Assembly (NCBI RefSeq): GCF_039691755.1
Contig: NZ_CP137552.1
Coordinates: 3,224,001 to 3,288,000 of the forward strand
Length of the DNA stretch: 64,000 nucleotides
Direction of reading: 5' to 3'
DNA from: Halomonas sp. Bachu 37
Lineage (GTDB): Bacteria; Pseudomonadota; Gammaproteobacteria; Pseudomonadales; Halomonadaceae
The notes under the pieces were generated by a model, which worked only from the letters and a program-made list of their open reading frames with translations, was not told the origin of the DNA and did no database searches. How positions within the stretch are numbered: the stretch's first letter is position 1; each line of letters begins with the position of its first letter. The translations under genes were made by a program, and so were the position numbers. This document shows positions 59,797 to 62,447 of the stretch, in pieces.

Positions 59797-61167
59797 TTAC
59801 GCTGGAATTGATGGCTCCCGCGCTACGGGTAACTTCATCCCGAACGTGGTAATACCGTCAGCGGATTGACAGTAAATCGCTCCGCTGTGTGCCTCGACGA
59901 TGGAGCGAGTGATAGCCATCCCCAAACCGGCATTCAATGTGCTTCCCTCACGTCTGGCCGTATCGATACGGTAAAAACGATCGAACAAATTGTCGATGTG
60001 CTCGGGCGGGATCGTTGGCCCGTGATTGCTTACTTCAAAACTCACCCACTGACCAACCCGAGATAGCTGAACATCGATCGTGGTGCCTGCGTCGCCGTAG
60101 CGAACTGCGTTGGACATGATGTTCGAAACCGCCCTGCGCAGCATGAGATTGTCGCCTCGCACCCGTGCCGCACCCTGACGATGCATGATGAGCTTGATGC
60201 CTTTCTCGTCAGCGGCATACTCGTAGTACTCCAGCACGCTCGAAGTTATCCTGGCCAGGTCTTGATCGTCGAAGTCTGGAGTGATCATGCCATTGTCGGC
60301 TTTCGCCAGGAAAAGCATATCGTCAACCATGCGTGACATCCGGCGTAGCTCTTCGAGGGTAGAATAAAGAACCTCCTTGTAGTCGGCATTTTCACGATCC
60401 TGGATTAACGCCACTTCTGTCTGCGTCAGCATGCTGTTGAGAGGATTGCGCAGCTCGTGGGCGATATCGGCGGAAAAATTCGATAACCGTAGAAAGGATT
60501 GGTCCAGTCGCTCGAGCATTGCATTGAAGTTAGCAACGAGCTCATGCAGCTCGGCTGGCACAGACGCAGTTGAAATACGCGTATCCAGGCAGTGTGCCGT
60601 GATCATGGAAGACGTCTTCGAGAGCCGGGATATCGGCTTGAGGCCGCGGCGGATGAAGACGAAGCCGAGCGCGCCACTGAGAATGGCGCTGGCGATGAGG
60701 GTGTAGATGAACCATCGCCGGATCATTTCGAAGAATTGAGCGCGGTGTGTCACGTCCATGGCCAGTTGGACCGTTCCTCCCTCTCCACCGGCCCACTCCT
60801 CGATCCACTCGGTTATACCGCTGTAACGCTTTTCCCCTAACTGGACTACCCATCGGCTGTCTTGCGAGGGGCTTAGCAATGTAGACAACTCCTCGGACAG
60901 ATTGTGGTGTGAGTACATGATCCGATCGCCCGACATGATAGCAGCCGCAAAGCCAAACGAAGTGTCGAACAAGCGTTGGATATCCGAGACCATCCCCGGG
61001 TCGAAATCATCTTCTCGCGTTATTATCGCCCTCAGGGCAGAGACTTTGGAATCGAGAGCCTGGGCGTCCTGTCTTTCGAAATGAAGTCGAGAAAAATAGT
61101 TAAAGCTGACAGCCGCGAGCGTGAGCACAGCGGTCACGACCATTACGAAAAGAAGTGTAGTGGTCAA
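59797..61167 (-). CDS. Heavy-metal sensor histidine kinase, 5' end displaced by an IS3 element
   Basis: At least 456 residues remain: a first membrane helix ([14 protein letters not shown]), a periplasmic sensor, a second helix ([18 protein letters not shown]), HAMP and a kinase core with the H box [18 protein letters not shown] box [15 protein letters not shown] and the G box [16 protein letters not shown]. The subfamily is the heavy-metal CusS type. The original start is 11 codons further upstream, now beyond the IS at 62447. The present frame could only start inside the IS at a TTG (61167). Whether the kinase is still made is uncertain; it lies downstream of the IS transposase on the same strand, so read-through transcription is possible. 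Confidence 0.85.
61153..61155. repeat. Target-site duplication, left copy (AAG)
   Basis: AAG directly next to the left inverted repeat, identical to the AAG at 62412-62414 on the other side. Confidence 0.8.
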
Positions 61168-62003
61168 GTGTTTTTGGCCACCGAATTTTGAGTATTCCAG
61201 TAGTTCTTTTCTGCCACATTCGGCGGTAGGCCACCGTTATGCTTGTGCGGCCTGAGGCTGCTGTAGTAACCGATCATATAATCAGTGACAGATTGCTTCG
61301 CCGCCGCAACATTGGGGTAGCCAATCTCTGGCATCCATTCCGTTTTCAGACTCCTGAAGAAGCGCTCTGTCGGGGCATTATCCCAGCAATTGCCACGGCG
61401 ACTGAGACTCTGCGTCATCCGGTAGCGCCAGAGCATCTGTCGGAATGCCAGGCTGGTGTACTGGCAACCCTGATCCGAATGAAACAGAATGTCCGGTGGC
61501 TCTCGACGCGATTCGTAGGCCATGGTCAGTGCCTTCTTCACCAGCTCCGTATTCGGAGACAAGGACAATGCCCAGCCCACGGGTTTACGGGCATACAAAT
61601 CGATGACCACCGCCAGATAAGCCCAGCGTGCCCCTGTCCAAATATAGGTAATGTCGCCGGTCCATACCTGATTGGGCTCCTTTACGTCGAATTCCCGATC
61701 GAGAAAATTCGGGATATCCAGGTGCGGCTGATCCGCCTTCTTGTAGGCGTGGCTTGGCGGCTGTGTGCTCACCAGCCCCAACTGCTTCATCCGTCTGCTG
61801 GCCCGGTAACGACTCAGCGATGTTCCAGCCTGCGTGACCATTTTGGCGATGCTGCGAGCGCCGGCAGAGCCGTTACTGACGGTATGCGCCTCGACAACCT
61901 GGTCCAGCAGCTTCTGCTCAGTCTCACAGGGCCTTCTGTCCCGGTCACGCCAGGCCCGGTAGCTACTGCGATGCACCCCAAACACCTGGCACAAGTGCTG
62001 CAC
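61164..62003 (-). CDS. IS3-family transposase OrfB (DDE integrase core)
   Basis: A protein of 279 residues from a GTG. The DDE residues are in [36 protein letters not shown] and [19 protein letters not shown], the standard IS3 pattern. The upstream part ([15 protein letters not shown]) is the HTH_21 region. Its frame is open back to the slippery A AAA AAG in orfA and lies in the -1 frame relative to it, so the active enzyme is presumably the OrfAB fusion. The stop lies within the left inverted repeat. Confidence 0.95.
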
Positions 62004-62029
62004 CGCATAGCTCTCTTCAAGTCGCTCGA

Positions 62030-62341
62030 TTATCGAGAATTGTTCAGGGAGTCCGACATCAAGAGAGCAGTAGCCTTTTTTAATATTTCCTTCTCTTCCT
62101 CCACCCGCCGCAGCTTGCGCTTCAGTTCCTGAATCTCACGCTGTTCCGGCGTCAGAGCCTCACCTTTCAGCGGAGTCTTGCCTGCCCGCTCAGCACGAAG
62201 CCTGCGTACCCAATACTCCATGGTGGATTTGCCAACGCCCATGGCCTCACACGCCGCCTTCAGCGAGTAACCCTGATCGACCACGAGCTGGGCCGCCTCC
62301 AAGCGAAATTCCGGACTGAACGCTCTCTTCTTCGTCATCAT
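62030..62341 (-). CDS. IS3-family transposase OrfA (helix-turn-helix)
   Basis: A protein of 103 residues. The helix-turn-helix is [20 protein letters not shown] with [20 protein letters not shown], followed by a leucine zipper-like region ([20 protein letters not shown]). The ribosomal slippage site AAAAAAG lies at 62075-62081, near its end, and shifts ribosomes to the OrfB frame. Either of two adjacent ATG (62341, 62338) may be used. Confidence 0.93.
62075..62081 (-). promoter_or_regulatory. Programmed -1 frameshift site of IS3
   Basis: On the minus strand the slippery heptamer A AAA AAG lies in the OrfA frame. I checked that the -1 frame stays open from here to the GTG of OrfB. Confidence 0.8.
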
Positions 62342-62411
62342 CTGCACCTGACTGTCTATGTGAGTGATCATACACTCAAAATCAGGTGGCCAGATTCACT
62401 GTGCCACTACA

Positions 62412-62414
62412 AAG
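62412..62414. repeat. Target-site duplication, right copy (AAG)
   Basis: Repeats the AAG left of the IS. Confidence 0.8.
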
Positions 62415-62447
62415 AGCCATCCGTCCCCTTAGCGACAACTTGTTCAT
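62415..62447 (-). pseudogene. Displaced first 11 codons of the sensor kinase
   Basis: Reads MNKLSLRGRMA with the ribosome site GAGGAGAG upstream. Joined to 61155 without the IS and one duplication it runs into LLFVMVV of the kinase in frame, giving [18 protein letters not shown], a normal first membrane helix. This is therefore the original start of the kinase gene. Confidence 0.88.

Follow-up and report, generated by a model that had tools for sequence, protein, structure and literature searches.

A probably recent IS3-family insertion in a copS-type sensor kinase gene convergent with copR in Halomonas sp. Bachu 37

In the window analysed here (a stretch of 64,000 nucleotides from Halomonas sp. 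Bachu 37), a copper sensor kinase gene beside copR is split by an insertion sequence (IS), and the locus raises the question of whether the kinase is still made and, if it is not, what becomes of its partner regulator. Our data make it probable that an IS3 element inserted recently into a copS gene and that the kinase was lost by this event; with less confidence, we suggest that CopR would thereby be released. The locus would then be a clean case of a probably recent inactivation of a metal sensor by an IS that left the partner regulator intact. Should the sensor belong to the phosphatase type, insertions of this kind would be gain-of-tolerance events that could easily be misread as loss of signalling. 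Beyond that, this is ordinary IS biology, the one twist being a possible copper-blind activation.

The insertion and the gene that it splits

The IS lies 11-12 codons into a gene for a sensor kinase of CopS/CusS type. The features of the split gene and of the element are as follows.

62452..62459, minus strand: native ribosome-binding site GAGGAGAG, with an anti-SD duplex of -8.9 kcal/mol
62412..62447, minus strand: native 5' end of the kinase gene, MNKLSLRGRMA(L), recognised from the leaders of relatives
62412..62414: one copy of the AAG target-site duplication
61156..62411, minus strand: complete IS3-family insertion sequence of 1256 bp (IRL at 62411, IRR at 61156), delimited from its ends, its repeats and its copies in the genome
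62030..62371, minus strand: transposase OrfA (HTH_Tnp_1)
61164..62003, minus strand: transposase OrfB (rve, DD35E), whose TGA stop overlaps a TTG as TTGA
61165..61167, minus strand: TTG within the end of the IS, sharing the reading frame of the kinase and part of the terminus TTGACCACTACA
61153..61155: the other copy of the AAG target-site duplication
59797..61155, minus strand: body of the kinase gene downstream of the IS, with the first membrane helix, sensor, HAMP, HisKA and HATPase parts

An earlier, sequence-only reading of the window had described a complete 1256-bp IS3 element, and this description holds, with ends at 61156 and 62411, OrfA and OrfB, a slippery heptamer and a DDE triad all present; the AAG duplication that it had claimed was found on both sides of the IS. 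OrfB scored 288.2 bits against the NCBIfam model transpos_IS3 (NF033516, cut-off 160) and has the DD(35)E triad D117, D177 and E213. The score of OrfA alone against the IS3 transposase model (56.5 bits) is under the whole-model cut-off because only model positions 1-85 of 369 are covered. A slippery A6G heptamer of the -1 type, AAAAAAG at IS base 331, predicts a frameshift between OrfA and OrfB. The 38-bp inverted repeats were present at the termini as described, but they are imperfect, being identical at 30/38 positions, and the element has the ends TGTAGTGG (TG...CA type).

Seven full copies of the IS were found in the 3.49-Mb genome, 100% identical to each other, plus one 90-base piece at 71%. 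Since these seven copies are identical, the insertion in the kinase gene is probably recent, which supports the earlier suggestion of a recent event. With zero differences among seven copies, the divergence is estimated to be less than about 0.034% per site, assuming a star tree and no gene conversion.

A matching 3-bp duplication was present at three of the seven copies. The other four (L002, L004, L005 and L007) have no such duplication and their flanks are unpaired by eye, a possible sign that IS-linked deletions occurred or that partners were lost. That these four copies are recombination partners of one another was considered and rejected, since their flanking triplets mismatch when compared by eye. 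In the right flank of L004 and the left flank of L007 the IS adjoins long ORFs (499 codons up to where the flanking sequence retrieved ends), which by eye resemble helicases or restriction-type ATPases and are possible damaged defence genes.

The uninterrupted kinase gene was sought in the ten close relatives L009-L018, out of 18 loci of which the remaining 8 are distant (26-28% identity). All ten read across the insertion point, starting at an ATG that lies 11 codons upstream of it, and the gene is intact in nine. These nine are open for 455-468 codons from the leader ATG, and L018 stops after 33 codons. The leader M-x-x-x-S-[LM]-R-x-R-M-A is found in 9/10 of the close relatives, with MRKTSLRSRIA in L014; the relatives are not all independent, as L012 and L013 are 99.9% alike and L015 and L017 95%. 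The leader is also carried by 48 of 59 homologues (P0002-P0060 among the 120 matches listed); the remaining 11 are fragments or have a later start called. Together, the close relatives and homologues confirm MNKLSLRGRMA as the native start, as had been proposed. The nearest intact homologue among the matches listed (P0002) is 87% identical and has the start MIRLSLRGRMALLF, and a kinase interrupted by an IS was found once among the homologues listed (P0001, with one member).

The ATG at 62447 with GAGGAGAG upstream of it, the TTG at 61167 and the kinase ORF, open from this in-frame TTG to 59797 (456 codons), were all found where the earlier reading had placed them. The native start now runs into the IS and meets a stop after 21 codons. 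The IS separates the native ribosome site, the first 11 codons and any upstream promoter from the body of the kinase gene.

Possible expression of the kinase beyond the insertion

As the kinase body has no stop and is open from the TTG within the IS end, some expression is possible, and the sequence-only reading had noted that this TTG keeps the frame open. The open frame and the TTG are real, but the last 12 bases of the IS (TTGACCACTACA), of which the TTG is a part, are the same in 11/11 of the IS relatives inspected (65-85% identical overall), and so are the last 14 (ACTTGACCACTACA). The comparison covered L034-L043 and L056, with the partial match L044 left out, and the 11 relatives amount to about three kinds of element since the ends of L036-L043 are almost alike. 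Because TTGACCACTACA is a conserved IS terminus, the TTG is no evidence for kept expression, and we rejected it as a sign of this. A long frame is opened by one of the seven genomic copies, where chance would give about 1 frame in 3, and continued synthesis of the kinase from the TTG is thus weakly supported.

The last two bases of the TTG begin the OrfB stop (TTGA). This terminal TGA is in the OrfB frame in all six IS relatives read near the end and is the first stop in four of them; in L034 and L056 it is preceded by an earlier stop in the OrfB frame. The top plasmid match by coverage and identity was an IS3 element of the Marinobacter nauticus VT8 plasmid pMAQU02 (NC_008739.1), which is full length, 83.6% identical and has the same last 12 bases. 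It differs from the IS of the window in being located elsewhere and in having a stop three codons before the terminal TGA in that frame. Within the genus, one genome (G060) holds a related IS at 85%.

The outward TTGACC at the IS end fits a -35 element. A minicircle-junction promoter is described for IS2 in the available text of PMC3219604, and by analogy the TTG at the IS end plausibly belongs to the outward -35 of such a promoter. A hybrid promoter directed outward from the end of the IS was also considered and was rejected, since no sigma-70-like promoter pair was found in 60900-62650 on either strand (shuffles mean 1.0).

The main rival to loss of the kinase is an account in which transposase and kinase are co-transcribed and ribosomes restart at the TTG after the TGA of OrfAB, so that a kinase with an MTTT leader would be made at a low level. 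We consider this unlikely, but several observations speak for it. The TTG overlaps the OrfB stop and opens the in-frame ORF of 456 codons. A scan of 60900-62650 gave no terminator-like site on the minus strand and one on the plus strand (mean of shuffles 1.3), so that transcription could reach the kinase. The native start has a calculated anti-SD energy of -8.9 kcal/mol, compared with -5.1 at the TTG (where the duplex is interrupted), -2.4 at the ATG of OrfA, -6.6 at the copR start and -6.9 at that of the CopI-like gene further on, and the stronger value of the TTG as compared with OrfA counts for a restart. Against this stands the conserved IS end, which accounts for the presence of the TTG, and the share of genomic copies that open a long frame is within chance. 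The restart product would moreover have MTTT in place of the leader and lose the net charge of +3 that precedes the first membrane helix. Synthesis of OrfAB is expected to be low and a TTG to be a weak start, which also argues against this account. Most likely, the kinase is lost or nearly lost, with at most low-level synthesis by restart at the TTG.

The restart could be extended further by regarding the conserved TTGA end as a portable termination-restart signal, by which a downstream gene would be tied to translation of the transposase; the level of the copper sensor would then track the activity of the IS, with a partly constitutive copper response. We consider this improbable.

That the true start of the kinase in this lineage is the TTG or an internal ATG, with the IS upstream of a working gene, is very improbable: an ORF is listed from the TTG and 3/59 homologues (P0012, P0013 and P0054) have their start called at the M in MALLF or MSLLF, but the leader is present in all ten close relatives and in most homologues, the IS stands between the leader with its ribosome site and the rest of the gene in the window, and the internal ATG at 61143, with an anti-SD energy of +0.6 kcal/mol, is without a ribosome site. 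Identical multi-copy elements are prone to assembly errors, but a misplacement of one of the seven copies is hardly credible here, as both flanks match one gene in relatives, the 3-bp duplication is exact and the contig is 3.47 Mb long.

The class of the sensor and the possible consequence for CopR

The copper genes on both sides of the split gene are as follows.

58876..58889, plus strand: cop-box-like site TTACAGAATTGTAA (exact TTACANNNTTGTAA) upstream of copR
59096..59794, plus strand: CopR/CusR response regulator, GTG start assumed, over the TIGR01387 cut-off
62595..63086, plus strand: CopI-like cupredoxin gene, scoring under the cut-offs of Pfam and NCBIfam, at the head of what appears to be a separate copper operon

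The split kinase scored 399.7 bits against TIGR01386 (heavy-metal sensor kinase, cut-off 292.55) and has HAMP, HisKA and HATPase domains. It is the only TIGR01386 sensor over the cut-off in the genome, the next sensor having 161 bits, and copR, which converges with it (ends at 59794 and 59797), is the only match to TIGR01387 over the cut-off. The kinase is 43% identical to P. syringae CopS and 36% to E. coli CusS, and these two were the partners in the class alignment. In the alignment the metal loop of CusS and its Ser84/Met133/Met135/His145 are absent from the window kinase, the His-Phe pair (equivalents of His41 and Phe42) aligns, and the second metal His (His140 equivalent) is shifted by one column, both in the window kinase and in its close relatives. 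The phospho-His is followed by Asn four residues on (HELRN), but Asn or Thr at this place is common to CusS (Thr) and does not separate CopS from CusS. The best match in a PDB search was 7zp0_A, a cytoplasmic kinase part, and matches to the kinase occur in at least 5000 plasmid records, with a best identity of about 62% among the matches listed.

According to the available text of PMC7763554, CopS is set apart from CusS by the missing metal-binding loop, and the phosphatase-type CopRS of Pseudomonas likewise has no CusS loop, has the His-Phe pair and has one CopR partner. The system of the window differs from it in the convergence of the kinase gene with copR and in the split of the former by the IS, and its phosphatase role is predicted from sequence. 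On balance, the sensor appears to be closer to phosphatase-type CopS than to CusS.

The class of the sensor bears on the direction of the effect. The earlier reading had proposed that copper signalling is changed, which is reasonable, but it claimed no direction, and loss of a phosphatase-type CopS may turn the regulon on. In P. aeruginosa CopS is a copper-blocked phosphatase, and deletion of copS raised the regulon to its maximum irrespective of copper and made the bacterium more tolerant of the metal, as described in the accessible part of PMC7763554. The accessible part of PMC11195947 describes a copper-independent regulon in P. paraeruginosa likewise when CusS is absent too, while deletion of copS alone left a normal copper response because another kinase, CusS, took over. 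By analogy, other kinases of the host genome could substitute for the lost sensor. As the sensor is without the CusS loop, like phosphatase-type CopS, a copper-blind activation of CopR seems likelier than a lost response.

In the proposed course of events, a recently active IS3 element would have transposed into codon 11-12 of the copS-type gene and duplicated AAG, and the kinase would no longer be made in a useful amount, with at most a low level via restart at the TTG. With less confidence, we suggest that CopR, the only member of its family in the genome, would be left phosphorylated after loss of the sensor, and that the genes at the presumed box, copR itself and the divergent cytochrome c/DUF305 genes, would be copper-blind and on. 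With similar reserve, copI-copA-copB, an apparent operon with its own two-component pair, would be expected to stay regulated.

The site at 58876 upstream of copR is only presumed to be a cop box, because the counts of such motifs in the window (6 with ≤2 mismatches, where 3.4 are expected) and in the genome (15 with ≤1 mismatch, where a reversed control gives 25) are not clearly above the controls. There are two exact matches genome-wide, the second on C2 beside what by eye resembles another IS3-type transposase. In the approximately 600 bases upstream of copR, a similar motif (≤1 mismatch; no shuffle control) is present in 5/9 of the loci L009-L017 and absent in four.

Beyond the IS follow, in close order, the CopI-like gene, a second response regulator, a second kinase, the CopA oxidase and CopB, and this apparent copper operon spans 62595-63761 of the window and 184-5359 of L045. 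The close order of these genes indicates that the main copper-resistance genes appear to have a regulator pair of their own.

Relatives and origin of the copper region

A match to copR (E <= 1e-40) was found in 11 of the 14 loci compared. In eight of these loci copR and the kinase are convergent, with copR adjoining the kinase in five and lying 1.1-1.5 kb off in L009, L016 and L017. These eight pairs are from Halopseudomonas and marine Pseudomonas (L009-L013 and L015-L017) and are 68-75% identical to the window in the kinase and 79-82% in copR, and their kinases, unlike that of the window, are uninterrupted. The more distant L014, together with L030 and L031, has copR and kinase on one strand, with a copR identity of 72% in L014 and 63-64% in the other two. 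All of the loci L009-L017 are named as Pseudomonas or Halopseudomonas.

Within the genus, a relative of the kinase at E <= 1e-75 was found in 2/82 genomes, which are the host and G007, and G007 has the same kinase fragments as the Vreelandella titanicae BH1 contig NZ_AOPO01000016. The copS relic of V. titanicae BH1 (L018), apparently of the same genus, has the same leader and is also broken, and the part matching query residues 100-186 is lost. The relic, at 4968-6025 of L018, is cut short in frame by a stop after 33 codons and is further damaged by deletions within the gene and by frame breaks, not by an IS. No match to copR was found in the 11-kb L018 locus. Repeated loss of the kinase with copR kept was considered for the genus and was rejected, since only 2/82 genomes have a relative and the L018 locus gave no copR match.

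A search of the literature on Vreelandella and copper resistance returned nothing, and among the matches listed for copS with insertion or transposase none was evidently on a copS split by an IS; we make no claim that the case is unreported.

The GC content in 2-kb steps is 0.59-0.67 up to 52 kb of the window, 0.58 in the next step and 0.53-0.55 from 54 kb. The rarity of the kinase in the genus, the Pseudomonas and Halopseudomonas relatives and the drop in GC suggest that the copper region may have been horizontally acquired. At 54000-64000 of the window, GC is down from about 0.61 to about 0.54, a possible edge of the acquired region.

The convergent arrangement of copR and copS is shared by the window and the eight relatives L009-L013 and L015-L017; in the records examined from E. 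coli, a P. syringae plasmid and a P. aeruginosa plasmid, the copR/copS pairs are co-directional.
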